From: Prolixibacteraceae bacterium
Lineage (GTDB): Bacteria; Bacteroidota; Bacteroidia; Bacteroidales; Prolixibacteraceae
Assembly (NCBI GenBank): GCA_019163175.1
Contig: JAFLKN010000015.1
Span: forward strand, 124,001 to 188,000
DNA: 64,000 nt
Reading direction: 5' to 3'
In this document: positions 40,965 to 59,675 of the stretch, in pieces
How the letters are laid out: every line of letters starts with the position of its first letter
Position numbering within the stretch: position 1 is the stretch's first letter
Notes under the pieces: model-generated
The model's input: the letters and a program-made list of their open reading frames with translations, nothing else
Databases searched by the model: none
What the model was told of the DNA's origin: nothing
Translations under genes and position numbers: made by a program

Positions 40965-41684
40965 TTAAATAAATTTCTCCCGTTTCTGCAAATTAAACAA
41001 TCCGTAGAGCACAAAAAGCAGTGAGCCTACAGCAAGAAAAATTCGGTTTTTCATCGTGATTTCCTGCCAGATCATTTCGTTAAGGCGGCGAGGGATTTCA
41101 AACGGATTCAGGAAAATATTCCATAAGGTGCGGTCGAGAATTTCAGATAAAATAAGCAATCCAACTCCAATAATGACCATTACTACAGCCGTTCCGTTTC
41201 CATTTTTGATAATGGTCGAAAACATAAATGCCAAAGAACCCAAAAAGTATATCGGGAACATCACATGGAAACTCAATTCCATGACAGGAACCGGGGCTAA
41301 AAGGTAGTAGCTCATTACGGTCAGGCCAATCATCATCAGGTAAACAAGTGCGAAAACCAAAACCAGGCGCACCAGCCAAACTTTATAGCGGTAATCGGGT
41401 ATCCCGAACAGAATTTCCAGAATCCCCGCGTCCACATCGTTCTGAATACCGAAAGTCATGGGGTAAAAGATAAGCAGGATGCCAGGCATAATCTGCAGCC
41501 CATATATAAAACCGTCGTCAATTTGGTTGTTATCGTAAATGCTGGTGATGGCAATAAAAAAGTAGAAGGCAATGGCCGCGAGCACAAACCAGACAAACCG
41601 ATTGCCAAAAATGACCTTCATGTTGTATTTCACCATTTTCAGGAACAAGGTCCAAAAGTTGGCGGCACTAATAGCTGATCCCAT
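40965..41684 (-). CDS. ABC-2 type permease of the efflux operon
   Basis: The 239-residue integral membrane protein has about six helices (including FVWFVLAAIAFYFFIAI and GLQIMPGILLIFYPMTFGI) and the order of ABC-2 type permeases such as the GldF/NosY group, with no ATPase domain. It is the last gene of the long minus-strand unit, 71 bp after the RND-ABC fusion. The ATPase that drives it is most likely the one fused to the RND protein, or the separate ABC ATPase at the head of the operon; which one is inference. A terminator-type hairpin follows. Confidence 0.8.
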   Translation of the reverse strand: MGSAISAANFWTLFLKMVKYNMKVIFGNRFVWFVLAAIAFYFFIAITSIYDNNQIDDGFIYGLQIMPGILLIFYPMTFGIQNDVDAGILEILFGIPDYRYKVWLVRLVLVFALVYLMMIGLTVMSYYLLAPVPVMELSFHVMFPIYFLGSLAFMFSTIIKNGNGTAVVMVIIGVGLLILSEILDRTLWNIFLNPFEIPRRLNEMIWQEITMKNRIFLAVGSLLFVLYGLFNLQKREKFI

Positions 41685-41755: not shown

Positions 41756-44700
41756 TTACTTTAAATCTTTAATCAGGCACAAATACGCATCTTCCAAAAC
41801 CGGATTGGCCATAATCGCATCTTCAGCCGGCTTTTGTTTGGAGAGGAAACGCACCCTGATCTGATCGCCCTGACGCATGTGGTGGGTAACCATTTGTTTA
41901 TTTTCCATTTTGTCGAAATCGGCTGCCGGAACATCAAACTGCCAAACCATATTTTTGGCCAGATGAACCATGTCCATTGGTGTTCCGTGGTATTTCACCC
42001 GCCCGCGGTTGATTACGGCCACCTGGTTACATGAGCTCGATATATCTTCAATAATGTGAGTCGAGAAAATCACGATGCGCTCGCGGCTCAGTTCAACCAA
42101 CAGGTTACGGAAACGGATGCGTTCGCGTGGGTCAAGTCCTGCTGTTGGTTCGTCAACAACCAGGATTTTTGGCAGGTGAAGCAGAATTTGTGCAATACCG
42201 ATTCTTTGTTTCATCCCTCCTGAATAGGAGCCGATTTTGTCAGCACGCTTTTCCCACATATGAACTGCCTTCAGTACATATTCAATACGTTGTTCGCGTT
42301 CCGTTTTATCAGTCAGTCCTTTCAGAATAGCCTGATAGTCGAGGAAATCCTGTGCCGGCATATTTTCGTAAGTTCCGAATTCCTGAGGCAAGTAACCAAT
42401 CAGTCCCTGCAATTCTTCGCGTTTTTCTTGCGTATCGATACCGTTTATCCAGATTTTTCCGTAGCTCTGTTCCAAAATACCACAGATGGTGCGCATCATG
42501 GTCGATTTACCAGCTCCGTTAGGGCCAAGCAATCCGAACATTCCGGTACCAATATTTAGCGAAACGCCGTTCAGTGCCTTGAATGGTTGATGCTGCTTGC
42601 CAAGAATTGGTATTTGTTTGACCAAACGCAGTGTTCCACGGCGCAAGGTTCCAAAACGTCCGGTAATGCGGTCGATATTTACTTTTTCCTGATATAGTTT
42701 TTTCGAGGTAACTGAAATAGCAAGAGCTAGATACCACAAAAAGCCAAATGCAACTACAAATCCAATCGAACCTGTAATCTTCCAAACCAAAATAATTTCA
42801 ATGGCAGGTAAAATCCAGAAAAGAAAAGACTGAACCCATTTAAAGATTTTCAATGGAAGCTTTTTCCCGGTTTTTTCAGCCCTAAAATTCAGGAAAAAAC
42901 TAAATGGTTTCCACATTCCCAAAGCAAGCTGTACGATTACAACTGAAAGAACCAAAGACCAAAAGGCTGAATCTAAATAAATGAAGCTGAAATAGACTAT
43001 TGAGCCTAACAGCGGTAATTGCCAGATCAGGTAGTCGAATTCGCGCAGGCTGTGGTATTGTTTCTCCAGGCCTTTGCGACGACGTATTTTTTTGCCCGAT
43101 TCCCATTCGCGCGAGAACTGGCTTTCGCGGTCATATATTTTTACCAGATTTTGAATGCGGATGTTTAGTGTATCCTCGTCACTAATCAGCTTGGTTCCGG
43201 CTTTTCGCAAACTGTTGAGCACAAACCAGGTCGATCCTGGAATCAGGATAATTACCAAAATGAAGTCGAGCATTTGCCATATTCCGTCTTCAACCTTAAA
43301 ATAGATTAGTGCAAACGCAGCAGCCATCAATACAATTTGTGTGATTTTGATTCGCAGTGTTTGCTCTTTAAACCATTCTATTGCATTCTCCAGTCCGGAG
43401 TAAAAAGTCGGGATAAATACCAGCGTAAGCATAGTACTGAGGACTAACCCCCCGATAACCACTATCGCGAACGGTGCGCCAATGGCACTCACATATTCGG
43501 CATCGCCCATTGCAAGTGGAAGCATCCCGACAACGGTAGTAATCGTGGTAATTAAAATCGGACGTACACGCGATAGTCCGGCTGTCATCAATGCACGCGA
43601 GCGGCGGAATCCACGGGTACGCAGAATATTGGTATAATCAATCAGGATAATCCCGTTATTGACAACGACTCCGATCAATATCAGGAAGCCGGTCAAGGTA
43701 TTGGCATTTAGTAAACTGTTGTTGGTAATAATGAGTGCCAGCAACGATCCGATGGCTGCCAAAGGAATAGAGAAGAGCAACACAACTGGTGTAATTACCG
43801 ATTCGAACACCGAAGCCATAATCATAAATATCAGCATAATAGCAGCTCCAATCATGAAATAGAATTCTGAATAATCGGTTTCTTCATGGATAACTTCGGC
43901 TGCAATGCCCGAAGGCAAATTGTAATTAGCCACGAGTTCATCAATTTCGTAACGGTAAGCAGCCAAAAGTTCATTTGAGCTGGCAGCTTCGCTCACAAAA
44001 CGATAATTTATTTCAATCTGTTTTTCCTGGTTAACGCGGTTAATACCTGCAAGACCACTGGCATACACAATCCTGGTAAAATCCTGAAGGTCATGAATTC
44101 CGCCCTGAGCATCGTTAACCTGAAGCGTTTTCAGCTCTTCCATGTTACGGTCGGTTTTTTCTTCTTCGCCTTCTACCAGTTCTTTTTGGGTAATAATAAT
44201 TTCGTATTCGTCAACACCTTGTTTATACTGAATGTTAGTAGCTATTTCCCTTGAAAATGAATTGATTTCAGTTAAAACATTATTGAGCGAAATGTTGTAT
44301 TCAGTCATCAGTAACGGATTAAAGTACAAGTGTACTTCCGGGCGGTTATCCGAAATACTCAGGTTAACCGACTGAACAGATTCGAGCTGATCGACAAAAT
44401 ACTTCAGGTCTTCGCCAACTGCCTGCATTTGTTTGAAATCCTGACCTTTGATGGTGATTTTTTCTTCGTCGCTTCCAATTCCCATCATCTTCTGGAAGCT
44501 GGCTCCCATGTTGCGACTTCCACCCTGGAAACTTCGGGTACTTTGTGTTTGTGTGAACGAAATTGAAGATGCTTTTACACCTTTCGTCCGGTCATTAATG
44601 TCAGTTTTTATCTGGGCAAATGTACGGTCGGCAATTTTTTCAAATTCCTCTTTTAATTTGATGGTTACTACGGCCGATTCTTCTTCAATTTTACTGATTA

Positions 44701-46468
44701 CATCTTCTTTTTCGGCCAGATCTTCCAGTTTCTTTTCAACTTCCTGAACAGTTTGATCGGTGGTTTCGAGCGACGAACCTGATGGCATGGTTACATACAA
44801 TCGGATTTCCGTATTTTCAACTTCCTGAAGTGAGTTTACACTTACAGCAAGACTGATGAAGATAGCAAGGAAAAATAATATGATTCCGCCAATTACTGTA
44901 CCTGCAGGATTCCGCATACATGATTTCAGGAAAACCAGATAAACCTGAACCATCCTCGAATCGGTAGTAACTTTTTCGTAGAAAATATTTTTGGCAACCT
45001 GCCGTTTCAACAAGGCATACGAAGCCATCGGTACAATAAGCAAAGCAACAGCCAGCGAAACAACAAGGGTAGAAATTATCGAAATTCCCACATTAAATCC
45101 AAGCATTTCGGCCATGAAATTGGTAGAGAACAGGAAAGGAACAAATACCACAATTGTGGTTAAAGTTGCCGCCAAAATAGATCGCCAGACTTCTGTGGTT
45201 CCTTGCACCACTGCTTGCAACGGGGCATACCCTTTCCCTGCAAGCCGGTAAATATTCTCTAAAACCACCACGCTGTTATCGAGCAACATTCCAATGGCAA
45301 GCGCCATACCAACCAATGTCAGACTGTTGATGGAAATATCGAAAGCATAAAATAAGTTGAAGGATGTGAAAATGGAGATGGGGATGGCCAGTGCAATGAA
45401 CGAAACAATCCGAAAGTTTTTCAGGAAAATCCACAATACAAATATAGCCATGATGCCTCCAACAAGCGCCAATTCCATAATCTGATTGATATTTTCTTCC
45501 ATTTGGTCGGCAGAATTGCTTATTTCAGCAATCTCAATTTCTTTGGAAGCCATTTTTTCATTCAGCTTTGCAACAATCTTGCGGGTAGCCTGCGAGAGTT
45601 CAATCATGTTGGCCTGTGAATCGTTCACCAGTAAAATGGTTACGGCGTCTTTACCGTTTACGCGGCTAAATGAGGTTTCTTCCTTTACCCCAAAGCGAAC
45701 TTCTGCTACATCTTTTAATAGAATGGGTCCGTTGGCTACTACCAGGTTTTCAAGATCCTCCACTTTGTCGTATTCGGCTGTAACATGCACAAAATATTGA
45801 ACTGTTTTTTCTTTCAGGTTGCCCACGTATGTGCGGGACCGGGTATTTTGCGAAAGTACTGAACGAACTTTTCCGGGGGTAATGTTGTAAGCTTCACAGG
45901 CTTTGGTATCCAGAATAATCTCGATTGATTTCTGTTTTCCGCCATACACGTTCACTGCAGCGATACCATCGATGTTTTCCAGATCGGGCTGAATATCCTG
46001 ATCAACAATGGTACGAACCCGGTCAATCCCGCCTTCGCCGCGTGCCTGAAGTTCCATAAACTGACTGTTCATCTGTTTAAGGTCAACCTTTGCTACACTT
46101 ACCCTCACATTTTCGGGCATCGAGGATTGTATCTCGTTTACTTTTTCCTGAAGTTTCAGGTAGGCATATTTGAAATTAACCCCTTTCTGGTAATACACTA
46201 CAATAGACGATTGCCTTGAGTTGACGTTCGACTCGATGGACTCGATTCCTTCCAGTGTTCCGATGGCTCCTTCGAGTGGAACCACCACCTGATTCTCCAT
46301 ATATTCAGGAGCCATTTCGGTAGTTGCGCTGGCTTGAACATACAGGAACGGAAGTTCGGCATTGGGTAACAATTCAACCGGCAGCTGTTTATAAGAGACG
46401 TAACCCAAAACGGTCAGTCCCAAAAACAACATGCTGATCAGTACTTTTCGTTCTATGATGAATTTCAT
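41756..46468 (-). CDS. Fusion of RND efflux pump, six-helix membrane module and ABC ATPase
   Basis: This 1570-residue open frame combines two transporter classes. Residues 1 to about 1025 form a complete RND permease, with the N-terminal helix, two porter regions, and TM4 motif GMLLDNSVVVLEN (Asp397, with Asn398 where AcrB has a second Asp). Residues 1035-1260 hold about six further helices in three pairs. Residues 1290-1570 are an ABC ATPase: Walker A GPNGAGKST (1315-1323), signature YSGGMKQR (about 1415), Walker B ILVVDEPTAG (about 1440) and H-loop STHIIED (about 1472). The ATPase is closely similar to that encoded at 55923-56816, suggesting duplication. No stop or frame change lies in the frame. 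I know no characterised protein with this order. Confidence 0.9.
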   Translation of the reverse strand: MKFIIERKVLISMLFLGLTVLGYVSYKQLPVELLPNAELPFLYVQASATTEMAPEYMENQVVVPLEGAIGTLEGIESIESNVNSRQSSIVVYYQKGVNFKYAYLKLQEKVNEIQSSMPENVRVSVAKVDLKQMNSQFMELQARGEGGIDRVRTIVDQDIQPDLENIDGIAAVNVYGGKQKSIEIILDTKACEAYNITPGKVRSVLSQNTRSRTYVGNLKEKTVQYFVHVTAEYDKVEDLENLVVANGPILLKDVAEVRFGVKEETSFSRVNGKDAVTILLVNDSQANMIELSQATRKIVAKLNEKMASKEIEIAEISNSADQMEENINQIMELALVGGIMAIFVLWIFLKNFRIVSFIALAIPISIFTSFNLFYAFDISINSLTLVGMALAIGMLLDNSVVVLENIYRLAGKGYAPLQAVVQGTTEVWRSILAATLTTIVVFVPFLFSTNFMAEMLGFNVGISIISTLVVSLAVALLIVPMASYALLKRQVAKNIFYEKVTTDSRMVQVYLVFLKSCMRNPAGTVIGGIILFFLAIFISLAVSVNSLQEVENTEIRLYVTMPSGSSLETTDQTVQEVEKKLEDLAEKEDVISKIEEESAVVTIKLKEEFEKIADRTFAQIKTDINDRTKGVKASSISFTQTQSTRSFQGGSRNMGASFQKMMGIGSDEEKITIKGQDFKQMQAVGEDLKYFVDQLESVQSVNLSISDNRPEVHLYFNPLLMTEYNISLNNVLTEINSFSREIATNIQYKQGVDEYEIIITQKELVEGEEEKTDRNMEELKTLQVNDAQGGIHDLQDFTRIVYASGLAGINRVNQEKQIEINYRFVSEAASSNELLAAYRYEIDELVANYNLPSGIAAEVIHEETDYSEFYFMIGAAIMLIFMIMASVFESVITPVVLLFSIPLAAIGSLLALIITNNSLLNANTLTGFLILIGVVVNNGIILIDYTNILRTRGFRRSRALMTAGLSRVRPILITTITTVVGMLPLAMGDAEYVSAIGAPFAIVVIGGLVLSTMLTLVFIPTFYSGLENAIEWFKEQTLRIKITQIVLMAAAFALIYFKVEDGIWQMLDFILVIILIPGSTWFVLNSLRKAGTKLISDEDTLNIRIQNLVKIYDRESQFSREWESGKKIRRRKGLEKQYHSLREFDYLIWQLPLLGSIVYFSFIYLDSAFWSLVLSVVIVQLALGMWKPFSFFLNFRAEKTGKKLPLKIFKWVQSFLFWILPAIEIILVWKITGSIGFVVAFGFLWYLALAISVTSKKLYQEKVNIDRITGRFGTLRRGTLRLVKQIPILGKQHQPFKALNGVSLNIGTGMFGLLGPNGAGKSTMMRTICGILEQSYGKIWINGIDTQEKREELQGLIGYLPQEFGTYENMPAQDFLDYQAILKGLTDKTEREQRIEYVLKAVHMWEKRADKIGSYSGGMKQRIGIAQILLHLPKILVVDEPTAGLDPRERIRFRNLLVELSRERIVIFSTHIIEDISSSCNQVAVINRGRVKYHGTPMDMVHLAKNMVWQFDVPAADFDKMENKQMVTHHMRQGDQIRVRFLSKQKPAEDAIMANPVLEDAYLCLIKDLK

Positions 46469-46478
46469 CTTGATTAAA

Positions 46479-46630
46479 TTAAGCCCCCTCTATATCTCCC
46501 CCACAAGGGGGAGACTTGAAGCGGCATATATTCACAACTTTCTCTTTTAAGCGTCAATCCTTTTTAAGCCCTCCCTTTCGGGGAGGGTTTGGGAGGGGCT
46601 CCTCTTTTAAGCCCCCTCTATTGGAGGGGG
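46479..46630. repeat. GC-rich palindromic repeat cluster at the end of the RND gene
   Basis: A 15-bp word (ttaagccccctctat) occurs at 46479-46493 and 46607-46621. Three short hairpins lie here: tctccccc-acaa-gggggaga at 46495-46514, ccctccc/gggaggg at 46569-46587 and ccccctc/gaggggg at 46612-46630. The last one forms part of the coding end of the upstream RND gene, whose final residues (SPKPPPIEGA) come from the repeat. Such G-runs occur as dispersed repeats in Bacteroidota. Confidence 0.75.
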
Positions 46631-49600
46631 TTTTGGGGAGGCTACAAACCGGTCTTTTAATCCATCGAAAACATCGAATACACAAGGAATCACGATAAGC
46701 GACATCAAAGTTGATGTGATTAATCCGCCAATTACCGCTAATGCCATTGGGGCGCGCAACGATGCACTTTCTCCGAAACCGAAAGTAAGTGGCAGCAGTG
46801 CCAAGATGGTAGTCAGCGTAGTCATCAGGATCGGACGTATTCGCTGTTGTCCGGCTTGCTGAATGGCTAACTTGCGCGGTACTCCCTCTTTTTGAAGTTG
46901 CAGAATTCGGTCAACCAACAGGATTGAATTGTTGACTGCAATACCCACCAGCATAATGATACCGATAATGGCCATGATGTTGAGGGTTTGCCCAAGAATA
47001 AAGAAAATCAGAATTGAGCCAATTACAGCTACCGGAATGGTTAGCAGAATGGTGAATGGGTGCAGTAACGATTCAAATTGTGAAGCCAGCACCATAAATA
47101 CCAGTATAATCGATAAAATCATGGCAAAGCTAAGTGCGTCCATCGATTCTTTCCGCTTTTCTTCTTCTCCGGTTATCTTGATTTTATATTCGGTAGGAAG
47201 ACTAATACCGGCAATAGCCTGATTTACCTTGCTTACCATTTTATCCAGGGCAATATCTTTATCCATGTAAGCAGTAATTTTGCCAATCCGGGTTTGATTC
47301 CGGCGGAAGATTTCCTTTGGAGAAGTTCCTTCGCGGATATCGGCAATTTCGTTAATCCGGATAACCTGGTTTCCATTTTTAATGATCATGTCCGATAAAT
47401 CAGCCAGTCCTTTGTCTGGCAAGCGAAGCGTAATGTCTTGCATTTCGCCGCCCTTTTCAACAGTTCCGGCCACTTTACCTGTTAACTGATCCTGAATCTG
47501 CGTGACCACATTCGCCACACTCATGTTAAACATTCCGGCACGAAGACGATCGACCATAATTTCAACTTCGGGCGATCCACCTTCCATCGATGCTTCGATG
47601 TTGTACAATTCCGGGATTCCGGTAACCGCCGCTTTAACTTCTTTCGATAAACTTTCAATTACATCCAGATCTTCTCCCTGAATTTCAACCACCAGAGGAG
47701 CTTCGTCGGTTCCCATTAATCCGCCCAATGCCGTTTGGTCCTGAACAAATTTCAGTTCCAGATCAGGCATTTCGCCTAAGGCCTGTGATATAGACTGAAT
47801 GGCCCAGGTTGATCCTTTATGACCTTCAGGTTTCAATATAATTTTAATATTTGCGGTGTTCTCGCCTTGGAAAAGTGCATCCTGACTATCGAGCATTCCG
47901 GTTGATGGGCCAACCTGGCTGAAAAGCGTTTCCAGTTGGTCGCCCAATACTTCGCGGACAATGTTCTCCATGTTTTCAACAGCGGCGGTAGTTCGTTCGA
48001 GTCGTGTACCTTCCTGCATTTTCAGCTCAAGTGTAAATTGACTTGTTTCCGATTTAGGCATAAATTCAGTGCCAATGAATGGGAATACAAGTAAAGAAAG
48101 TCCCATTAACACAACAGTTGAGATAATTACAGCCCATTTGTATTTTAAGATGCTTCCCAAAAGACTACCATATCCCTGTATTTTAAGTGACTTCTGAACT
48201 GCAGGCTTTTTGCTGTTTTTATAAAAATAATTGTACATCATCGGGATGAGCAAAGTTGCGACAACCAGCGAGGAAAGCAGCGAAAAAGTGATGGTCCATG
48301 CCTGATCACGGAACAATTCGCCTGACGCCCCATGCAGATAAACAATGGGAAGAAAAACGACAATAGTGGTTAGGGTCGATGAGGTTATTGCCCCACTTAC
48401 CTGCGAAGTTCCCTCAATAGCAGCATCTTTTACCGACATGCCACTCTCTCTTAAACGGAAAATATTTTCCATCACCACAATGGCATTATCGACCAACATC
48501 CCAGCTCCGAGCGCCAACCCTCCCAATGTCATAATGTTCAGGCTGAGGTCGTTAAAATACATGAGGTTAAAAGTGGCGATAATTGAAATCGGCATGGCCA
48601 AACTCACAATAAGAGTGGTTCCGATGCGACGCAGGAAAACAAAAAGTACGATCACGGCCAGCAGGATTCCCATCAAAGCTGTATCTTTTACTTCTTTAAT
48701 GGCATTGTTGATGAAAGTTCCCTGGTTCGAAACCACTTTCAGGTGATATCCCGGCAGTGCTTTTTCCATGTCGGCCAAAGCCTTTGTTACATCCTCAACT
48801 GCCTTTACAGTGTTGAACCGTGTTTCTTTGTATATCGACAAACCCAGACAGCGCGCGCCGTTCATGCGTACAATATTTTCAGGATCTTTATTGGCAAAAC
48901 TTATTTTTGCCACTTCGCGTAAATAAATCGGAGCCTTTTCTGCCTGAAGATCGTCTGTAATAGTTGATTTATACCCAACAATAGTGTTCTCAAAGTCGCT
49001 CAAATCGGTAAGCAAACTCACTCCTTTCACCACATATTTCATTCCCATTTCGGTGATCGATCCACCGGAAATACTCTGATTAAAGCTCTGAATTCTGGAA
49101 TTCAGTTCCTCGAGTGTCAATCCGAAAGCATCGAGCATGTATTGATCGGTTTCAATGAGAACCTCGTTTTCTTCTGCACCGGAAACTTCCACTTCGGCAA
49201 CTCCTTCAAGTCTCACGAGTTCATTCCGCATATAGTTTTCGGCTACCTTACGGAGTTCGTTCATGTCGGTAATACTTTCGTGCGAAAGGCCAACAACCAT
49301 AACCGGTGTGGTATTCGGGTCGTGCTGGGTGATGTTTATTTCGTCGATATCCTGATTTTGGGCAAATGCACTCGCAGCTTTTTGAAGGTCTAGAAATGCT
49401 TCGTCCATATCTTTGGTCCAGGCATATTCTACCGTAATTTGGGCAGTACCCACTTTCGAAACCGATGAAACCTGCAACACATCCGATTGGCGAATGGCCA
49501 AAGCTTCGAGGTTTTCAACAAATTGTTTTTCAATTTCTTCCGGTGGACGTTCGCCCGACTTCAGTTCAATAAACAGGCGGGGATTGTTTATCTCCGGAAA

Positions 49601-49791: not shown

Positions 49792-50850
49792 TTACTTTAC
49801 AATCTTAACCTTAGAGCGGTTTTTCAGGGTTTCGTAACCTTTAATAACCAGTCGGTCGTTCATTTTTAATCCTGAAGTAATTTCGGCTTCGTTCTGATTT
49901 TCGTACCCAAGGGTGATCCGTTTTTCGTCAGCAGTTCCATTGTCAACAATGAATACCGTTTTGCCACGCTGTCCGGAAATAATGATGTCTTTCGGAATTA
50001 CAATCACGCTGTCTTTGCGGGCCAGAACGATGTCGGCTTTGGCAAACATACCAGGACGTAATTTAAGATCAGGATTGGCAACCTGAATAATTCCTTTAAA
50101 TGTGCGTGTTTCGGTGCTGATGGCTGGCGATAATTCTTTGATGCTTCCGGGTAAGGTATCGTTTGGAAGTGTGTAATTCATGATTCGTACAGATTGATCA
50201 ATGGCCACATCGGTAATGTATTTTTCAGGAAGGTTTACCTCAACGGTCATTACACTGTAATCCATCAGACTTGCTACTGAAGTTCCTGAAGCAACCTGAG
50301 TACTGTTGGTAATGGCTGGCAAATCTGTAATAACACCTCTGAAAGGAGCTGTAACTTTCATTTTCGCCAGTTGAAGATTAGCCCGCTCGAAAGCATCTTT
50401 AGCGTTGGTATAACTTACTTCGGAGTTACGAAAATCGAGTTGGGTAACTCCACCTTTTTCGAAAAGCGATTCTTGTTTTTTCATGTTTTGCTCCGAAATT
50501 TCGAGGTTAAGCTTTTTAGCTTCAAGCCCAATTCCGTTAACATATTCAGCATCTTCGAGCATAACAATTACCTGCCCACTCTCAACCACATCGCCCAAAG
50601 CAAACGGACGGCGGGTTCTGGGATTAATCAACAGTTTATATTTCCCTGTCATTTCAGTTTTTACCACCGTATTTTTGGTGGCATTCAGGGTACCGGTAGT
50701 GTTAATCACTTTTTCGATTGAACCGGGTTTAATGTCGGTTACTGAAACCGGTACCGCCAACTCGGTTGTGGTGGCTGCAGGTTGATTGTTACAGGCAGTG
50801 GTGGCCCCTATCAGGGCAATCAAAGCAATAAATTGGTGAAATGATTTCAT
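49792..50850 (-). CDS. RND membrane fusion protein (periplasmic adaptor)
   Basis: The 352-residue lipoprotein (lipobox ATTAC near residue 20) has the layout of RND adaptors: a lipoyl half motif (TEMTGKYKLLINPRTRRPF), a coiled-coil hairpin (LEISEQNMKKQESLFEKGGV), a second lipoyl half (MKVTAPFRGVITDL) and a beta-barrel ending VIKGYETLKNRSKVKIVK. It bridges the RND permeases and TolC. It is 80 bp upstream of the RND gene and 15 bp after the TolC gene, so co-transcription is likely. Confidence 0.9.
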   Translation of the reverse strand: MKSFHQFIALIALIGATTACNNQPAATTTELAVPVSVTDIKPGSIEKVINTTGTLNATKNTVVKTEMTGKYKLLINPRTRRPFALGDVVESGQVIVMLEDAEYVNGIGLEAKKLNLEISEQNMKKQESLFEKGGVTQLDFRNSEVSYTNAKDAFERANLQLAKMKVTAPFRGVITDLPAITNSTQVASGTSVASLMDYSVMTVEVNLPEKYITDVAIDQSVRIMNYTLPNDTLPGSIKELSPAISTETRTFKGIIQVANPDLKLRPGMFAKADIVLARKDSVIVIPKDIIISGQRGKTVFIVDNGTADEKRITLGYENQNEAEITSGLKMNDRLVIKGYETLKNRSKVKIVK

Positions 50851-50865: not shown

Positions 50866-52353
50866 TTATTTCTTCTGGATAATATTTTGAGGAACAATAG
50901 CTTCATTTTTCTCGAAATCGTACAGCGACTGAATTTTAAGGTTCAGCAGTTCAATTTTATAGTCGATCAAAGCCTGTGCGTATGACATTTTTTTCTGTGA
51001 AAGCTGGTTTTGGAACAGATTCATATCCATACTGGTAAGATCACCGTTGGCGTAACGCTCCAAGTTGATTTCGTAGGTCAGCTGTGCATTTTTCTCACTT
51101 TGCGCAGCAATGTCGATCTGATTAACGAGGTTTTGCAGACTACGGTAAATCCTTCTGATATCGAGTGTTATTTGTTTCTTTTCTTCGGTCTGGCTTAATT
51201 TCTGAGTTTCGATTACAGCTTCCTGTGCCTTGATGCGGGCTTTCTTTTCGCCCCAGTCGTACAGTGGAAGGTTAAATGAAACAGATACTCTCGGATTGTT
51301 GGTTGGATTATCATAGACATCTTTTAGCTTTTCGTTGTCGCCGCTAATACCCAATGATAAATTAACATCGCCTCTGAATTCGTTCAGCGATTTGGTGCGG
51401 ATCATGTCAAACTGTGAAGTCTCGATGTCGATTTCGCGTTGGCGAAGTTCCATCCTCGAAGTCAAACCAAATTCGATCGCTTTTTTTACATCAACAATTA
51501 CAGGGCTTAAGGCCACATCGGTCATCACGGTTATTTCTTCCATAATGTCCATGCCGATATATTGTTTAAACTGATCCTTGAGATTATCGAGACTAACCTG
51601 TGCATTTTGAAGGCTCGATTTGGCAGTAGCAAAGTTTAGTTCTGCCTGATAAAGTTCCTCTTTAGCCGAAATTCCGGCAGTCACTTTGTTCTGAGTTATT
51701 TCGTAGCTTTTCTGGGTATTTTTAAACTCATCCTGAGAAATAGTTAGGTTCATTTGGGCCAGATAAACATCGTAAAAGAATTGCGTGACCTGCTTTTCGT
51801 TATTCAGTTTTTGCATGGCATAGTTTAACTGGGCATTTTCGAGAACAAGCTCCAATTCTTTAATCTGAAGTTTTGTCCGGTTGTAGGTGAACAGGGGTTG
51901 GGCTATGCTTAACGAAAGATTGTTATAAAATGCTTTGTTCGTTTCTGAACCATTAAATTTCTCAACATAGTTGTTTTGCCAGCCAAAGCGGTTTATCAGG
52001 CTAATGGTTGCATCAGTCGGAAGGAAAGGTTGAGTAATCGTAAAAGTACTGGAGGGTTGTGTCGTTTTACTCGTGTACCATTGCGAGTTATATAAATCAA
52101 ACTGCCGTCGTTGGTCGTAACTCATTGGAGTAACACTCAACGAAAAATTCGATTTGAGTGCAGCATTCTGTGCAATTAACGATTGTTCTGAACGCTCCAG
52201 ATTTAACAAAGAGCGGCGGATGTCGGGACTGTTATTACGCGCAATTTCGAGCGCACTTTCAAGTGTCAGAATTTGCTGTGCATTGGCAATAAGCAAAAAC
52301 TGGCAAAAAACGACCAGAAGAAGTCCCCGTTGAATAAGATTTTTTAATGGCAT
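50866..52353 (-). CDS. TolC-family outer-membrane channel
   Basis: The 495-residue protein has a signal peptide (LLLVVFCQFLLIANAQ) and the repeated coiled-coil and barrel organisation of TolC: QILTLESALEIARNNSPDIRRSLLNLERSEQ at the beginning and ANGDLTSMDMNLFQNQLSQKKMSYAQALIDYKIELLNL near the end. As the outer-membrane duct it would complete a tripartite pump with the adaptor and RND permease downstream. It lies between the ABC-2/M1-like gene and the adaptor gene on the same strand. Confidence 0.92.
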   Translation of the reverse strand: MPLKNLIQRGLLLVVFCQFLLIANAQQILTLESALEIARNNSPDIRRSLLNLERSEQSLIAQNAALKSNFSLSVTPMSYDQRRQFDLYNSQWYTSKTTQPSSTFTITQPFLPTDATISLINRFGWQNNYVEKFNGSETNKAFYNNLSLSIAQPLFTYNRTKLQIKELELVLENAQLNYAMQKLNNEKQVTQFFYDVYLAQMNLTISQDEFKNTQKSYEITQNKVTAGISAKEELYQAELNFATAKSSLQNAQVSLDNLKDQFKQYIGMDIMEEITVMTDVALSPVIVDVKKAIEFGLTSRMELRQREIDIETSQFDMIRTKSLNEFRGDVNLSLGISGDNEKLKDVYDNPTNNPRVSVSFNLPLYDWGEKKARIKAQEAVIETQKLSQTEEKKQITLDIRRIYRSLQNLVNQIDIAAQSEKNAQLTYEINLERYANGDLTSMDMNLFQNQLSQKKMSYAQALIDYKIELLNLKIQSLYDFEKNEAIVPQNIIQKK

Positions 52354-52412: not shown

Positions 52413-55400
52413 CTAACTATCCTTCTGCTTTTTATTGTTTTTATTTTTTGCTTTTTCGGCCTTTTTTGTCGCTTTCTTTTCGTTCAGTTCGGGTGTTTTC
52501 TCTTTCGGAGTTTCTTCTTTTACTTCTTTTACCTTCTCCTTATAGGGTTGAATGGACTCAGAAACCAACTTTATTGCGTCGGCAACAACAACCTGTGCTG
52601 ATGATTTATTCCCTAATTCAACTTTTGCTGAATCGCCTGAGAAATAAAATGAGCCCAAACTATTCCAGCCGTTATCAATAGTTTTGAGGTCAATAACCAC
52701 CTCTTCCTTTTCGCCATTGTGATAAATGGTATAAGTGTATTCGCCACCTTGATCCTGATTATCGCGTCGTCCGCGCTGATTTTGCTTGATAATATGTGAG
52801 AATACTTCGTATGTTCCATCGCCTTTTATTGGGATGTTCCAGCTTGCCTTTTTGCTTCCATCGCCTGATCGGATAAAATGCGCCGACCGGATGAACTCTC
52901 CAAAGAAACTACTGTTGGTGGTAGCTTTCCATGTACGTGGAGCCCGCCATGTATTAAACCCGACATACTTTTCCTTGGTCAGGTCTTCTTTGAGCAACAA
53001 CTTTTGCAACAAACTGTATTCGGTGGTTTGCGAAAACTTAAAGGTTGAATCCTCATCGTCAGAAATAAACTCGCCATCTTCGGCCAGACGAACAGCAACC
53101 TCCGATATTTTTTCGCCTTCGAAAGGTGTTGCCTTGGTATCTTCTTCAATATTCTCTAACTGAACACGAATTTCAGAAGGAATATTTCTTGATGTTAATG
53201 TATTAATTGTCAATCCACGAGGCGTTCCATCGAGCAGGAAGCTCACCTCTTTGGTTTGTTTGCCTTCCAGACTGATCAGCTTGTCAATGGTTTCGGCATC
53301 GCCACCCATCATAAAGCGACCTCGTCCGGGGCCTCCACCCCCACCGAGTCGGAACTGTACAATTACAATTCCTTCAGTTGTTTCGGTGTTGCTGATCTTA
53401 AATTTCACCATAGTCTTGAGGCGGTCGCCATCAAGCACATTCACCGCATCAACTCCACCAATCAGGTAGCCCGGAAGATTTTTGCTGTTGAACCAATTGT
53501 CCATAAACGGCATCAAATCGGCACTAAACTGAGTTTGAATTCTGGTATTAAAATCTTCTATTGTGGTTCCTTTGAACTTGATACTCTTTAAGAATTCGAA
53601 CATAAAATCGTCAAACGCAACATCACCAGTCCGTCGTTTAATGATGGAGAAAAGCGATTGCCCTTTTTGTTGGATCACATTGTCGATAATCTTTGCTTTG
53701 GTGGTGTCGTTAAGCAATTCGGCAAACGAAAAATCCTGTAAAGCCAGATTCGCCTGTTCATTTTCAGTCATTCCCTGCATGTCGCGCATCCAGCCCATTG
53801 CTCCTGATTGTGACGATTTTTTCAGGTAGGATTCAAAAATACGGTCGGCAATTGGCCATTTATCTGATTGCACAAAATAGGCATGGTTATAAAATAAAGG
53901 GAAGGCATATAGCGCGTTGGCCTTTTCTTCGACCTGAACTTCGCCTTGGCTTCGGTTAAAGTTAGGTCTGCCCGATTCCTGTGTAAACAGCGATAAGAAG
54001 CTATTGAATGCTTGTACCTTTTTCTCTTCGGGAGTGGTTTGAGCTTCGTTTCCACGACCTCCTCCTCCCCAGCGCTCCATTCGTTTTACCGAACCATTAA
54101 AATCGGCCTCACCAATGAGCAAGCCTTTTTCAGGAAAAAGTATGGTCTCGGGCTGAACCTGTTCACGTTCGCCCATTAAAGTACGCGGATACGAATAAAA
54201 CTGAGCCGGAACTTCAACCAATGTAAACCGTTGAAACGGGTAATACATGTCTATTTTACGCTCGTAATCTTTTAATGCAGTGGCAATCAGGTCAGGGATA
54301 GTATCTTTTACCGGTTCGAAAAATTTGGTGAAATAATCGTGATTGGGATGATGGTACAGGTTGAATTCCAGTCCGTCGATTGTATCGGTTTTTTGCGTAT
54401 AGTTGCCTATAACCAGCGATATCTGTGGTAAATTGGTTTTGTTGGCAAAATGGAAAGTACCCTCTATTTGCTCCGGTTTTCCTTGCGAAATGGCAGTAAG
54501 GCCTGGCTTGGTTTTTACTGAAATGTCGAAACTGCTGAATTGTTTTTGCATCCATTGCTTACTTTTGGTTCCGAAGCTTGTTCCGGCTATCGGGTACCAG
54601 TTGCATTCGCGCGTAAGCAAAACAAATTCAGGTGAAACAATGCCCGAACGTTTATCAATCTTAAACATGAAAGCCTGATACGGTTTCTGAAGGGTTTTAT
54701 CGTCCACATCGAGATAACTGGCAGCTTCGTTCAGTCCCCCGCTGTAGGTAAATTCAAGATCAGCACTTTCGCCGGGTTCCAGTTCGGTCCCCGAAAATTC
54801 GACTAAATGCAACTCGCGTTTTACCGAAGTTTCCTGCCCATTGACGCTGACTTTATTCACGGTCAAACCCGGATTCAGGCTAAATACAAAATGATTAACC
54901 GCTTCGGGGTGAGGGTTGCTTACTTTCAGTTTTGCAATTACATCAATAGTATTCCCTTTGTGGTCAAGCTCAATCTGGTAGCTTTCAATCGTTAAACGTG
55001 GAGTTTCCAGATTAGCATCATTCAGTATTCGTATGTTTTCTCTTAATTCCTGATTACGAGCAAAGGTTGAAATATGCATATTCCCCAGCCAGATACCGGC
55101 AGCAAAGAAGATAAGCGCCGGGAAAAGGGTTACCTTGTTGCTGAAAGGGCTTTGAGGTAATCGTTTCAGGAGCGAAATGGTTAGGAATATAAATGCGACT
55201 CCAAAACAGGCATACATTCCGCGGTGTATCATGATGGTTGGAAGGTTTCCAAACCCCATAAAATCGGAATTAAGCAGCGGCATACTGTAGGCCATGTAAT
55301 CGAACAGGTAGTAGTATTTGGTGTTGAGATAAAAAATTGTAACCGCAACGTATCCGAGTAAAAGAATAAAGGTGATCGCCTGATTTTTCAGGATACTCAT

Positions 55401-55910
55401 AATAAAGAACGAAAGTCCGAGTATGAAAAGCAGGGTGGGCAAACTGATAATCAGGAAATATTCCAGATAAGCCAACCAGTTAACGGTAACATTTTCGGCA
55501 ATCAGATTAAAGATGAGCGCTTCCGAAAGGATAATCAGGTTAAGGATAATAAAAACAACCAGGTTACCGAGGGTTTTTCCGGCAACATATTCGCCGTTCG
55601 ACATCGAGCGGATGTAAATAACATCGGTAGTATCCAGTTTTTTATCGCGTTTCAGGAAGTCGGAAGCCAGAAAAATAGCAATAATAGCCTGAACGGTATT
55701 CAGCAACAACAGGTTGATGTATGGAATGACTGATGAAATTGCTTTCATGTCCCAGCTTCCGGCACCAGCATTGTCCATGATGAGCGTTCCCATGTTGAAG
55801 AAGAACAAAAAGACCATAGCCAGAATGGCAAAAATCCTGAAAAACCACGAGCGTAGCAGCGTGGTGATTTCGTATTTGGCAATGGAAGTAATATTATGAA
55901 CGGATATCAT
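52413..55910 (-). CDS. ABC-2 permease fused to inactive M1-peptidase-like and golvesin-like domains
   Basis: The 1165-residue protein starts with about six transmembrane helices of an ABC-2 permease (residues 1-285, beginning SIAKYEITTLLRSWFFRIFAI). A beta domain and an M1-aminopeptidase-like region follow (about 295-850, including ERKIDMYYPFQRFTLVEVP and GEREQVQPETILFPEKG). I found no HEXXH zinc motif anywhere, so the peptidase region is presumably a pseudoenzyme. Residues 983-1117 resemble the golvesin C-terminal type domain (GWNSLGSFYF, VVADAIKLV). A lysine-rich tail ends it. The helices suggest it pairs with the ABC ATPase upstream, only 12 bp away; the large soluble part would face the periplasm. 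Confidence 0.85.
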   Translation of the reverse strand: MISVHNITSIAKYEITTLLRSWFFRIFAILAMVFLFFFNMGTLIMDNAGAGSWDMKAISSVIPYINLLLLNTVQAIIAIFLASDFLKRDKKLDTTDVIYIRSMSNGEYVAGKTLGNLVVFIILNLIILSEALIFNLIAENVTVNWLAYLEYFLIISLPTLLFILGLSFFIMSILKNQAITFILLLGYVAVTIFYLNTKYYYLFDYMAYSMPLLNSDFMGFGNLPTIMIHRGMYACFGVAFIFLTISLLKRLPQSPFSNKVTLFPALIFFAAGIWLGNMHISTFARNQELRENIRILNDANLETPRLTIESYQIELDHKGNTIDVIAKLKVSNPHPEAVNHFVFSLNPGLTVNKVSVNGQETSVKRELHLVEFSGTELEPGESADLEFTYSGGLNEAASYLDVDDKTLQKPYQAFMFKIDKRSGIVSPEFVLLTRECNWYPIAGTSFGTKSKQWMQKQFSSFDISVKTKPGLTAISQGKPEQIEGTFHFANKTNLPQISLVIGNYTQKTDTIDGLEFNLYHHPNHDYFTKFFEPVKDTIPDLIATALKDYERKIDMYYPFQRFTLVEVPAQFYSYPRTLMGEREQVQPETILFPEKGLLIGEADFNGSVKRMERWGGGGRGNEAQTTPEEKKVQAFNSFLSLFTQESGRPNFNRSQGEVQVEEKANALYAFPLFYNHAYFVQSDKWPIADRIFESYLKKSSQSGAMGWMRDMQGMTENEQANLALQDFSFAELLNDTTKAKIIDNVIQQKGQSLFSIIKRRTGDVAFDDFMFEFLKSIKFKGTTIEDFNTRIQTQFSADLMPFMDNWFNSKNLPGYLIGGVDAVNVLDGDRLKTMVKFKISNTETTEGIVIVQFRLGGGGGPGRGRFMMGGDAETIDKLISLEGKQTKEVSFLLDGTPRGLTINTLTSRNIPSEIRVQLENIEEDTKATPFEGEKISEVAVRLAEDGEFISDDEDSTFKFSQTTEYSLLQKLLLKEDLTKEKYVGFNTWRAPRTWKATTNSSFFGEFIRSAHFIRSGDGSKKASWNIPIKGDGTYEVFSHIIKQNQRGRRDNQDQGGEYTYTIYHNGEKEEVVIDLKTIDNGWNSLGSFYFSGDSAKVELGNKSSAQVVVADAIKLVSESIQPYKEKVKEVKEETPKEKTPELNEKKATKKAEKAKNKNNKKQKDS

Positions 55911-55922
55911 AGCTGTTCAGGT

Positions 55923-56816
55923 TTAAATGGCTGTCCATTGGTTTAAGTTGCTTTCCATAAAATACACATAGGCATGTTCAAGGTTTGGCGCGATGTTCTC
56001 GCCATGGTAACCGTTAATTGCATCGGCTACAACCTGAATTTCCCAACCTTCGCTGGTCGGAACATTCGAGATAACCGGATATTTTTCGTTGATTTCCAGG
56101 TATTCTGCTTCAGTAGCCTGAATGAGCCATACTTTTCCTTCGGCTTGCGCCACCAACTGATCGGGTGAGCCGGTAAAAGCCAGACCGCCTTTATTGAGCA
56201 AAGCCATATCGGTACACGAACTCGAAATGTCGCCAACAATATGGGTCGAAAGAATGATGATTACATCCTGCGTTGAAATGGTGGAAAGTAAATTTCGGAA
56301 ACGGATGCGTTCTTCAGGGTCGAGTCCGGTAGTCGGTTCGTCAACAATAATGATTTTGGGTTCGTTAATCAGCGCCTGGGCAATTCCAAGGCGGCGTTTC
56401 ATCCCTCCTGAAAGCTTGTTGGCCTGACGGTCGCGGGCTTCGAACAAACCAACTTCCTCCAGCATTTTATCGACAGCCTTTTTGCGTATTTTCGATTCTT
56501 TCATGCCAGCCAAACGGGCGGCATAGTCGAGAAATTCGTAAGTTTTTAGGTGCGAGAAAAAACGGAAATCCTGGGGAAGATAACCCAACATAGAGCGAAT
56601 TTGCTCCCGGTCTTTGGTCAGATCATACCCGTTCATGATTATTTTTCCGGAAGAAGGCTGCATTAAGGTTACCAAAATGCGCATCAGGCTCGATTTGCCT
56701 GCACCATTGGGCCCGAGTAGCCCAAACATCCCATTGTTGATTTCAAGATTTACATCTTTGAGGGCATGGTTGCCGTTGGGATAGACTTTATTTAGGTTTT
56801 CGATAGTTATCTTCAC
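55923..56816 (-). CDS. ABC transporter ATP-binding protein (heads efflux unit B)
   Basis: The 297-residue protein has Walker A GPNGAGKSS near residue 36, the signature LSGGMKRR, Walker B IIIVDEPTTG and the H-loop STHIVGD, then a C-terminal extension of about 80 residues. It lies only 12 bp upstream of the ABC-2/M1-like permease and is probably its ATPase. It is closely similar to the C-terminal domain of the RND fusion, including the segment DISSSC after the H-loop, which points to a duplication. A 184-bp gap with a long hairpin separates it from the upstream genes. Confidence 0.9.
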   Translation of the reverse strand: MKITIENLNKVYPNGNHALKDVNLEINNGMFGLLGPNGAGKSSLMRILVTLMQPSSGKIIMNGYDLTKDREQIRSMLGYLPQDFRFFSHLKTYEFLDYAARLAGMKESKIRKKAVDKMLEEVGLFEARDRQANKLSGGMKRRLGIAQALINEPKIIIVDEPTTGLDPEERIRFRNLLSTISTQDVIIILSTHIVGDISSSCTDMALLNKGGLAFTGSPDQLVAQAEGKVWLIQATEAEYLEINEKYPVISNVPTSEGWEIQVVADAINGYHGENIAPNLEHAYVYFMESNLNQWTAI

Positions 56817-57000: not shown

Positions 57001-57675
57001 TTATTTCTGAAGCTGATAGGCGCTTGTTGAATCTACTTCGAGGCTGATTTTCTGAATTGCACCTATAGAAAGTTCGGATTTATTGGCTAAAGAGCCCGAA
57101 AGATGAACTATTGAATTGTTCCATGAATTCATTTTAGTTTTATTCAGGCGAACATTCAAATTTTCAAGGTGAGCGCCGCTCATGTTTATTTTGGAGGTTG
57201 ATGCAGTTATCGAAAGTTGAGCCTTCGGGCCCTTTGTTTGATCGAAATAAGCTTCGAATATTGCATAGTCGAGCTTAACATCGAGGGAGTCAGCAGTAAA
57301 TTGCTGCAATTTCACGATAGAGTTTACTTTGGCTACAATGCTTTTTATGTTTCTTCCATGAATTTCGTGCCACTTGTTTGGTTTTTTCTTTTCCTTGCAG
57401 GCAAACACAAAAAGTGTATCGTTTCGGATGCCGTATTCCGGGAAAGTGCAGGTGTCGGGCTTGTCATAATAACATGTCATGCGGGGATATTCGCCATTTC
57501 TGATATTAAATTCAGCCCCGTCTTCAGCCACTACTACTGAAAAAGGCTCTAACCGCTTCTCTTGCAAGCCAACCTGTCTATTTTTAAAGTTCATTTTGGC
57601 ATCAAGAAATAAAACAAATGTACACGTGATAAGAAATACGAAAAACGCGATGATGATATAGTTACTGGTTTTCAT
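57001..57675 (-). CDS. Membrane-anchored beta-rich protein of efflux unit A
   Basis: The 224-residue product has one N-terminal transmembrane helix (YIIIAFFVFLITCTFVLFL) and a periplasmic part with repeated short strands (VHLSGSLANKSELSIGAIQKISLEVDS at the end) similar in look to DUF2807/GIN-type beta-helical domains. I do not know its function. Its start overlaps the end of the GntR gene by 14 bp, so the two are translated together and it is probably part of the same response. Confidence 0.6.
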   Translation of the reverse strand: MKTSNYIIIAFFVFLITCTFVLFLDAKMNFKNRQVGLQEKRLEPFSVVVAEDGAEFNIRNGEYPRMTCYYDKPDTCTFPEYGIRNDTLFVFACKEKKKPNKWHEIHGRNIKSIVAKVNSIVKLQQFTADSLDVKLDYAIFEAYFDQTKGPKAQLSITASTSKINMSGAHLENLNVRLNKTKMNSWNNSIVHLSGSLANKSELSIGAIQKISLEVDSTSAYQLQK

Positions 57676-58042
57676 GAAGATCGTTGTTTTTAATTTCGGT
57701 GACTAAATCGATTAAATCGTTGCTGTTCAGTTTCAGGAGCTTTACTTTTTTAATAAATTCAGGAAGTTCGTGGGCAAAAAAGTTGGTTTTTTCAGTGTTT
57801 CTTACCAATTCAACGGCATTTTCGGCTATGAAAAATCCGATGCCGCGCTTGTTGTCGAAAATGCCCGAGTCCTGCAAAGTAGTGTAGGTTCGCATCACTG
57901 TATTTCGGTTTACTTCGTACTCTTCGGCCAGGTCGCGCACCGATGGCACACGGTCTCCCGGTTTCAACAGCCCCTCCAGAATCTGGTGGCAAATGCTGTC
58001 GGCTATCTGAAGGAATATTCCTTTGGTCGATTGAAATTCCAT
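57662..58042 (-). CDS. GntR-family repressor, YtrA type
   Basis: The 126-residue protein has the GntR winged helix (PGDRVPSVRDLAEEYEVNRNTVMRTYTTLQDSG) and only a short C-terminal segment, as in the YtrA subfamily, which commonly represses its own ABC transporter operon. It begins 1 bp after the permease stop. I chose ATG 58042 since upstream residues would overlap the permease end. A GTGTC..GACAC palindrome at 59676-59697 is the likely operator. Confidence 0.88.
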   Translation of the reverse strand: MEFQSTKGIFLQIADSICHQILEGLLKPGDRVPSVRDLAEEYEVNRNTVMRTYTTLQDSGIFDNKRGIGFFIAENAVELVRNTEKTNFFAHELPEFIKKVKLLKLNSNDLIDLVTEIKNNDLHENQ

Positions 58043-58043
58043 G

Positions 58044-58835
58044 TTACACCTCTTTTTCTTTAAGTTTGAAATAAGCCAGGGGCAGAAAAAACAGCCAGGG
58101 ACATCCAAAAATGATATAAAAGAACAGTTTAATGTTTTCGGTATCGCTGTTTATTTTATAGATCGGAATGGTAATGTTGGTGTTTCTCACAGATTCGGGA
58201 AAGAAAAGATGATAGGAAACCACAAAGGCAAGAAATACGGTACCAACGGTGATTCCAAAAAATATCAATGTTTTCGGAATTGCAAACCGCTTAAAATAGA
58301 CCGAACCTGCAAACAGAAGTGAACATCCCGAAAAAATGCCAAACAGGATCGGGGCGATATCTTTGTGATTAAGTTGATTGAAAAGACTTGTAAAACTGAA
58401 ATCAGAAATTCTCACTTCAGGATCAAACCCAATTTTTGGATCAGGGATTAATGATGCTTTGGCTAAATGCGCACTAATCCAGAAAATAAGGAGGGCAACC
58501 GGTATAAATATTACAATCCGTATTAAAAACTGTACCAGATATTTCTCGAGGGTCGATCCCGGCATGAGTAAATAGCCACTCGCTTTAATCTGATTGGACA
58601 AGGCCGGGAACGCCGTACCTATCACAACTCCAACACCCATCAGATAAAATACGATAAATCCGGTATATTGATTTATACTGACGTGTTTTGTTGTAATCAT
58701 TGAAAAATACATAAGTGCGTAGATGGCAATCCCAAGTCCGGCAAGCGTAAACAAGTATGTTTTTTGGTTGATCAACCAGTCGTTCCGTAATAAACGGGCG
58801 AAACGTCCCGGAGAAAAGTATTTATTCTGGTTCAT
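58044..58835 (-). CDS. ABC transporter permease of efflux unit A
   Basis: The 263-residue integral membrane protein has about six helices (including TYLFTLAGLGIAIYALMYF and TGFIVFYLMGVGVVIGTAF). It begins 7 bp after the ABC ATPase stop and ends 1 bp before the GntR start, so the three genes are tightly coupled. The pairing is that of the YtrA-regulated transporters of Gram-positives and Bacteroidota. The substrate is unknown. Confidence 0.82.
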   Translation of the reverse strand: MNQNKYFSPGRFARLLRNDWLINQKTYLFTLAGLGIAIYALMYFSMITTKHVSINQYTGFIVFYLMGVGVVIGTAFPALSNQIKASGYLLMPGSTLEKYLVQFLIRIVIFIPVALLIFWISAHLAKASLIPDPKIGFDPEVRISDFSFTSLFNQLNHKDIAPILFGIFSGCSLLFAGSVYFKRFAIPKTLIFFGITVGTVFLAFVVSYHLFFPESVRNTNITIPIYKINSDTENIKLFFYIIFGCPWLFFLPLAYFKLKEKEV

Positions 58836-58842
58836 GGCTTTA

Positions 58843-59661
58843 CTAATTTAAGTTTGATTTATTAACGATGGCATTGAATAACAGCTCAATGTCGATTTCG
58901 GTCTCATCTTCGTTATTCGCTGGGCAGATAATCCGGTATCCGCCGGGGCATTTTTCGTGGTAAATAGGGTCAGCAATCCCCGAAAGACTGGCAACTGATT
59001 TGAACTGCCATTTCTGACTTATGCTTGCAACCTCTTCGTTGAATACAATTTCTCCTTTGTCGAGAAGCACGATTTTGTCGATAATGGTATCGATGTCTTT
59101 TACCTGGTGGGTCGAAATCAGCACCAATTGTTCATCGGTGACCGAGCTAACCAAAATCTTGCGGAACAGGCTTTTGGAAGGAATATCCAGTCCATTGGTG
59201 GGTTCGTCCAGAATCAGCAAACGGCAATTGGTGGCCAGTGCAAACGCAATCAGGAATTTTTTGCGCTGCCCGTGTGACAGGCGGCTAAGGTTCTTTTTAG
59301 GCTCAAGTTCAAATTCCTTCAGAATTTTGTCCATCTTTTCCTGTTCAAAGTTTGGGTACAAAGGAGCGGTTGCTTTCACATAGCAATCAATACTAACTGG
59401 TGGGAACGAAAATTCTTCGGGAACCATAAATACATCCGATAAAAAGTCGGGTAAACGGTCGAAAGGGATAAATCCATTGATGGCTAATTGTCCTGTCTGT
59501 GGTTTTAGCAAACCAGCCATCAGTTTAAGGAGCGTCGATTTTCCAGCTCCATTTTTACCCAACAATCCGGTAATGCTTCCATTCTCTTGTTGAAACGTCA
59601 AGTCGGAGAATAATGCCTGTTGCTTTTTGTAGTGAAAGGTTAATTGTTTAATTGAAATCAT
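58843..59661 (-). CDS. ABC transporter ATP-binding protein of efflux unit A
   Basis: The 272-residue protein carries Walker A GKNGAGKST, signature LSHGQRKK, Walker B LLILDEPTNG and H-loop STHQVKD. The signature has SHGQ instead of SGGQ, as in the YtrB group. The start at 59661 is preferred over the ATG at 59697, which lies inside the operator palindrome and promoter. It is the first gene of unit A. Confidence 0.9.
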   Translation of the reverse strand: MISIKQLTFHYKKQQALFSDLTFQQENGSITGLLGKNGAGKSTLLKLMAGLLKPQTGQLAINGFIPFDRLPDFLSDVFMVPEEFSFPPVSIDCYVKATAPLYPNFEQEKMDKILKEFELEPKKNLSRLSHGQRKKFLIAFALATNCRLLILDEPTNGLDIPSKSLFRKILVSSVTDEQLVLISTHQVKDIDTIIDKIVLLDKGEIVFNEEVASISQKWQFKSVASLSGIADPIYHEKCPGGYRIICPANNEDETEIDIELLFNAIVNKSNLN

Positions 59662-59675
59662 GGCATAGATGTTTA

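Follow-up and report, generated by a model that had tools for sequence, protein, structure and literature searches.

What powers an RND permease whose own polypeptide continues into an ABC ATPase? Pumps of the resistance-nodulation-division (RND) family run on proton flow and ATP-binding cassette (ABC) proteins on ATP, the textbook divide between secondary and primary active transport, and a single 1,570-residue protein joins the two in a 64,000-nucleotide stretch, here called the window, of a Prolixibacteraceae genome (GenBank assembly GCA_019163175.1, contig JAFLKN010000015.1, positions 124,001 to 188,000). An earlier note on this DNA had proposed either a dual-energy machine or an RND part that serves an ATP-driven transporter. 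Sequence comparison bears out the fusion and the fact that it is conserved, an ATPase with all its motifs intact, the displaced strand that carries the A-loop, the arrangement of the operon, and, in both of the operon's RND proteins, the loss of two residues of the AcrB relay. Our tentative reading, to which we would give somewhat less than an even chance, is that the fusion is one of the two RND subunits of an ATP-energized RND-type tripartite exporter, with an ABC motor built in and an ABC-2-like partner encoded downstream.

The one long frame that had been described is indeed present, on the minus strand, and runs stop-free from an ATG at 46468 to a stop at 41756; the plus strand of 41756-46468 has many stops. 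Residues 2-1024 are a full-length permease of the HAE-1/AcrB superfamily (Pfam ACR_tran, positions 3-1018 of 1,021, E 1.2e-167), in agreement with the boundary near residue 1025 given before, and their PDB relatives are MdtB (the best match), CmeB, and MexB. At the other end, ABC_tran matches residues 1299-1443 over its entire profile (E 2.4e-27), and the best NCBIfam ATPase models, GldA and DrrA, both score far below their cut-offs. The key residues of the Walker A, Q-loop, signature, Walker B (with its Glu), and H-loop motifs are identical in 38 of 38 fusions (our own included), and with an aromatic A-loop residue they complete the motif set of an ABC ATPase. Mean hydropathy over the same 38 proteins places six extra hydrophobic segments near residues 1045-1055, 1063-1079, 1153-1167, 1169-1182, 1217-1236, and 1239-1250, in keeping with the roughly six further helices of the earlier note. 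A Pfam scan of the whole fusion yields only ACR_tran, ABC_tran, MMPL, and AAA_21, with no search aimed at the MacB family.

We scanned 61 genomes (our own plus 60 relatives) for the same arrangement. A single uninterrupted fusion frame is found in 32 of them, one of which (G012) is a single contig. Two more have the frame interrupted once within the RND part (G003 near residue 328, G026/L076 near 121), in seven it runs into a contig end or a stretch of N (G007, G008, G029, G047, G050, G058, and G017, the last with its N stretch near residues 51-82), and 20 have no match above ordinary RND similarity. At the junction between RND and ATPase the relatives show no break other than contig ends, and identity to our fusion declines from 98% within the genus to 50%–53% in other families. 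Since the frame is unbroken in 32 genomes, one of them in a single contig, and persists down to about 50% identity, we reject an assembly join, and give that explanation or a chance frame almost no credence. The same domain order, which the earlier note had proposed seeking in other Bacteroidota, is also seen in a sample of 395 genomes (our own among them) drawn from across the phylum, where at least six have the whole fusion (own, G176, G405, G124, G218, and G407) and at least two of these, among the matches listed, fall outside the class. The linker region between RND and ATPase occurs in 17 of 149 genomes of the order (13 uncut, four cut by a contig end), and all 13 uncut fusions are single frames of at least 1,536 aa. 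Nine of 13 named fusion loci are labeled Prolixibacteraceae, and the rest Odoribacter sp., Bacteroidota, Bacteroidetes, or Bacteroidia. Searches of viral contigs and plasmids found no relative. By this spread and identity range across the genome scans, the fusion is old and has been retained, though its distribution is patchy. One genome (G016) seems to have a second, diverged copy with its own 239-aa gene (L077 and L006; 59% versus 89% identity to the window). Another apparent ABC fusion, of 1,432 aa (G404, L075), was discarded: the ATPase starts at an internal Met of its own, and the remainder resembles the kind of long frame that stays open in GC-rich DNA.

The ATPase had been described as complete after the six helices. 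Its motifs are intact, but its first strand is elsewhere. Ahead of the third extra helix the fusions share a conserved strand, 'IxIxNLVKIYDR', at about residues 1101-1113, with a tyrosine (Tyr1112) that is invariant in 38 of 38; in the separate ATPase of the same operon (P0002), the corresponding strand directly precedes 'ALKDVNLEINNGMFGLLG'. We placed each 20-residue window of the linker before the ATPase core in eight proteins and scored it with a P0002-family profile. The strand at 1101-1113 was the best of 235-277 windows in all eight, with a gain of 12.6-16.1 bits, against 4.8-7.9 bits for the best window elsewhere in the linker. A strand is also predicted at 1101-1110, although by a junction model (residues 865-1570, 21 alignment rows; pLDDT 56.7, pTM 0.31) that is otherwise unreliable and was not used for folds. 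It thus looks as if residues 1101-1113 are the first strand and A-loop of the fused ATPase, displaced about 180 residues ahead of the rest, so that beta 1 no longer lies beside beta 2 as in a contiguous ABC ATPase. Across 46 proteins, the distance from the A-loop Tyr to the core has a median of 183 residues (111-210). Two hydrophobic segments lie ahead of the strand in all 46, and between strand and core there are four in 41, five in four (the fifth weak), and two in one. These even segment numbers fit a cytoplasmic ATPase. By this alignment, the ATPase domain encloses four of the six extra helices. A natural fusion in one relative (L112, 12358-16947) has an in-frame, shorter insertion, with two rather than four hydrophobic segments in the ATPase. 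In G407 (L083) the fusion is longer by about 30 residues between the A-loop strand and the first inserted helix.

In profile searches the six extra helices match no known family. Across 23 members the linker gave only scattered weak Pfam matches in one or two members each (best E 0.0028), and against PDB a single chance-level match (E 0.28) and no relative. We discarded the idea that the helices are a copy of the operon's two ABC-2-like proteins, with hhalign probabilities below 1% in four of four comparisons; this is a weak test, because those two proteins do not match each other either.

We assigned relay positions by alignment to MdtB and CmeB and by how far apart the residues lie in AcrB. 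In the fusion these positions hold Asp397 (AcrB D407), Asn398 (D408), Asn937 (K940), Arg967 (R971, by spacing), and Thr974 (T978). At these five positions the 38 fusions have D in 38, N in 37, N in 38, R in 38, and T in 38, and 29 sequences of the partner RND protein have D in 29, N in 29, N in 29, R in 29, and T in 28. Neither protein therefore carries the full residue set of an AcrB-type proton/drug antiporter (D407 and D408 in transmembrane helix 4, K940 in helix 10, R971, and T978). In the part of PMC4359379 that we draw on, the AcrB changes D407N, D408N, K940A, and R971A are each reported as inactive in proton translocation and efflux; by our alignment, then, both RND subunits of the operon are altered at two positions where single changes stop AcrB. 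As a control we took 35 other frames as RNDs (three from our own genome, 31 from relatives, and one from Holophagaceae), a non-random sample of search matches. The canonical D-D-K-R-T is found in 27 of these, D-D-R-R-T in three, D-N-N-R-T in two, and D-G-L-R-T, D-D-S-R-T, and D-F-Q-R-Q in one each. The D-F-Q-R-Q frame (L176) shows none of the RND motifs and is probably no RND, but was retained among the 35. The two frames with Asn at both positions (L156 in G060 and L170 in G049) are RNDs without an ATPase, so the Asn-Asn form of the relay exists outside the fusion operon. L156 adjoins adaptor- and TolC-like genes.

The fusion is the sixth gene of an operon on the minus strand: the P0002 ATPase, P0003, a TolC-type protein, an adaptor, the RND permease P0004, the fusion, and a 239-aa protein, with gaps of 12, 59, 15, 80, 138, and 71 bases in that order (Table 1). 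All seven genes occur together in 25 of 42 loci (22/32 and 3/10 in two locus sets), and the other loci, except G035 and L120, run into a contig end or the end of the fetched stretch. Among 54 loci examined, a P0004-type RND precedes the fusion in 47 of the 48 with enough flank, giving the two adjacent RND genes in one operon that are typical of MdtABC-like systems, and the gene after the fusion is that of the 239-aa protein in 49 of 50 uncut loci. In G035, a small-genome relative, the operon is spread over four contigs (L061, L130, L131, and L132), which between them hold the ATPase and the start of P0003, the rest of P0003 and TolC, the adaptor and RND, and the fusion and 239-aa gene. The P0003 pieces stop at contig ends; the adaptor, RND, and fusion have flank, yet the expected neighbor is not there. 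That the fusion and the 239-aa gene are still adjacent in this genome points to a functional pair. In L120 the place of the 239-aa gene after the fusion is taken by a frame (3-641) that we take to be a REP-type transposase, followed by the contig end; this frame carries a run of repeated VVQNDVV units.

Table 1. Parts of the fusion and genes of its operon, in window coordinates
Feature	Positions	Strand	Basis
RND permease part of the fusion, residues 2-1024	43397..46465	-	Pfam ACR_tran; PDB relatives MdtB, CmeB, MexB
First extra hairpin, two hydrophobic segments, residues ~1038-1089	43202..43357	-	Hydropathy, 38 fusions; two segments in 46/46 proteins
Apparent displaced ATPase beta strand 1 with A-loop Tyr1112, residues ~1101-1113	43130..43168	-	Alignment, Tyr in 38/38; sliding test 8/8
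Insertion within the ATPase, four hydrophobic segments, residues ~1114-1293	42590..43129	-	Hydropathy; no convincing Pfam family, no PDB relative
ABC ATPase core, beta 2 to C-terminus, residues ~1294-1570	41759..42589	-	Pfam ABC_tran; catalytic motifs intact, 38/38
Separate ABC ATPase P0002; operon gene 1	55923..56816	-	Pfam; closest paralogue of the fused ATPase in its own genome
P0003: ABC-2-like helices at the N-terminus (weak match), M1-peptidase-like part scoring below cut-off, C-terminal domain of golvesin type	52413..55910	-	
TolC-type outer membrane factor	50866..52353	-	Pfam OEP
Periplasmic adaptor, RND_mfp/HlyD type	49792..50850	-	Profile matches
Second RND permease P0004	46607..49711	-	Pfam ACR_tran; directly before the fusion in 47/48 uncut loci
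239-aa protein with multiple helices, ABC-2-like membrane domain; operon gene 7	40965..41684	-	

The 239-aa protein has a helix order compatible with the six-helix ABC-2 fold (an N-terminal amphipathic helix, and a coupling helix after the second transmembrane helix). A structure model (pLDDT 64.4) has PmtCD and NosFY as its nearest PDB chains, followed by ABCG, CcmABCD, and KpsM entries. No ABC-2 Pfam match rises above cut-off, and one of 29 family members matches ABC2_membrane_2 at E 0.029. This protein, and not the six extra helices, is the likeliest membrane partner of the fused ATPase.

P0002 is the nearest paralogue of the fused ATPase in its own genome (43% identity, 223 bits; the next scores 143), which bears out the close relationship claimed in the earlier note. 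That note had gone on to suggest that the fusion probably arose inside this operon, for which the tree offers no demonstration. Built from 24 fused rows (of the 38), 19 operon ATPases, 12 stand-alone ATPases, and five outgroup rows on very long branches, it places fused, operon, and stand-alone ATPases in one clade each (fused clade support 99/99). With the outgroup, support for joining the fused to the stand-alone clade is 83/30, and a tree constrained to keep fused and operon ATPases together scores 0.36 higher (approximately unbiased [AU] test, p 0.557), so these data do not distinguish which two of the three clades are sisters. That the fused ATPases form one clade fits a single origin of the fusion. 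Among the matches listed in the phylum scan, the best unfused relatives are stand-alone ATPases (43%–46% identity), which adjoin permeases of 1,174-1,225 aa with 10-13 hydrophobic segments in five of five contexts read (of 11 fetched).

If the fusion is indeed part of an ATP-energized exporter, the machine might work as follows. The trimer would consist of two fused chains and one plain RND chain, as in MdtB2C, so that two ATPase domains would meet under it. These paired ATPases would drive a dimer of the 239-aa ABC-2-like protein, which would lift substrate from the inner leaflet or the cytoplasm into the RND funnel, from where it would pass out via the adaptor and TolC. The RND part would no longer use an AcrB-type proton relay, in which case ATP would supply the power; the relay changes in both RND subunits suggest a pump re-powered in this way. 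ATP binding at Tyr1112 would pull on the helices either side of the strand, and would tie nucleotide binding directly to the membrane. P0002 and P0003 would form a second ABC unit of the same machine. A stronger version, in which both RND subunits lack AcrB-type proton coupling and are re-energized by the fused ABC motor, with ATP binding to an A-loop strand held between helices pulling on the membrane part, would make this a new primary-active RND class; we regard it as possible but doubtful.

The choice posed at the outset, between a dual-energy machine and an RND part serving an ATP-driven transporter, is well founded, and the relay data lean to the latter without proving it. A dual-energy machine would keep the RND trimer on protons through a non-AcrB relay (Asp397, Arg967, and Thr974), and a second step powered by ATP, such as substrate delivery to the RND, would fall to the fused ATPase together with the ABC-2-like protein encoded downstream. 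The relay Asp, Arg, and Thr are retained in both RND subunits, L156 and L170 have the Asn pair and yet no ATPase, and the entire tripartite set is present in the operon, all of which would suit such a machine. Both subunits nevertheless lack two residues each essential in AcrB (in the same portion of PMC4359379), and the Asn-Asn pattern is rare in the sample, at two of 35 frames; we consider dual energization rather unlikely. The fused ATPase might instead pair with P0002 and drive the ABC-2-like helices of P0003, giving one heterodimeric ABC exporter for which the RND is an anchor. P0002, as closest paralogue, first gene of the same operon, and a partner with full motifs like those of the fused domain, would be a candidate. 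But each of the two ATPases adjoins an ABC-2-like gene of its own, G035 has the fusion and 239-aa gene apart from the ATPase and P0003, and the stand-alone relatives, too, adjoin their own large permeases (5/5), which makes this pairing distinctly unlikely.

The two readings that remain turn on the extra helices and the ATPase itself. Six covalently attached hydrophobic segments, the number found in many ABC half-transporters, could be the ATPase's own membrane domain, a self-contained half-transporter glued to an RND. The lack of any convincing family or PDB relative for these helices, their dissimilarity to the operon's ABC-2-like proteins (in the weak test described above), and the relative L112, which is two helices short with its ATPase kept, leave this improbable. 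Alternatively, the ATPase could regulate the RND pump, or act as a switch in its assembly, and move no substrate. The unusual tethering either side of the A-loop might be expected of such a switch; an ABC-2-like gene adjoins the fusion in 49 of 50 uncut loci, however, and the hydrolysis residues are kept in 38 of 38, and we think a purely regulatory role very improbable.

Several further features of the operon and its surroundings may be recorded. HExxH is absent from P0003 in 24 of 25 sequences (one has HETKH at residue 885), and its M1-like part is perhaps, on this evidence, an inactive, binding-only peptidase fold. In the 138-base gap between P0004 and the fusion, at 46520-46640, a GGGGGCTTAA-like motif recurs in GC-rich palindromes, the main one of which occurs nowhere else in the window; the length of the gap ranges from about 0 to 610 bases among relatives. 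Promoter-like sites were no commoner than in shuffles (33 versus 37.5) and a terminator scan gave 27 against 20.0, and because of these counts both scans were given little weight. Upstream, at 57001-59697, lie a GntR-type regulator, an unknown protein of 224 residues, a membrane protein of 263 residues, and one more ABC ATPase, a set that presumably resembles YtrABC. Relatives of all four of these genes precede the operon in L062.

An RND-ABC fusion with an altered relay in both subunits would show that the RND porter cycle can be driven by a source other than protons, and the fusion opens to experiment the question of whether the cycle can be uncoupled from the source of its energy. A membrane insertion nested within an ABC motor domain is in itself an unexpected architecture. 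Our searches of the open-licence PMC literature found no account of an RND-ABC fusion, a weak test of absence, nor is one mentioned in the relevant passages of a review of tripartite systems (PMC8277102). The component parts all belong to known families; to our knowledge, the joint between them and the nested insertion are apparently new.

Comparison with known systems helps to place these parts. The stand-alone Bacteroidota ATPases beside permeases of about 1,200 aa are, among the matches listed, the closest unfused kin of the fused domain; in the 11 stretches around them, unlike in the fusion operon, no counterpart of the window's RND, adaptor, or TolC genes was found (E up to 1e-4). The ABC-2 (type V) exporters NosFY and PmtCD are alike in that the ATPase is DrrA/GldA-like (below model cut-offs) and the 239-aa model is nearest to their chains, whereas the ATPase here belongs to an RND chain, and four helices come between its first strand and the rest. 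MacAB-TolC is an ATP-driven transporter that works with an adaptor and TolC. As described in the same passages of PMC8277102, the ATPase of MacB is also fused to a membrane protein, at the N-terminus; in our case the ATPase follows an RND permease, at the C-terminal end of the chain, and a membrane insertion is nested within it. The overall layout resembles that of the heteromeric RND tripartite pumps MdtABC and MuxABC, which likewise combine two neighboring RND genes with genes for an adaptor and a TolC-type protein, and for MdtABC an MdtB2C1 heterotrimer is stated in the portion of PMC7015380 consulted. Unlike these pumps, one RND subunit here adds six helices and an ABC ATPase, and both subunits lack the equivalents of D408 and K940.
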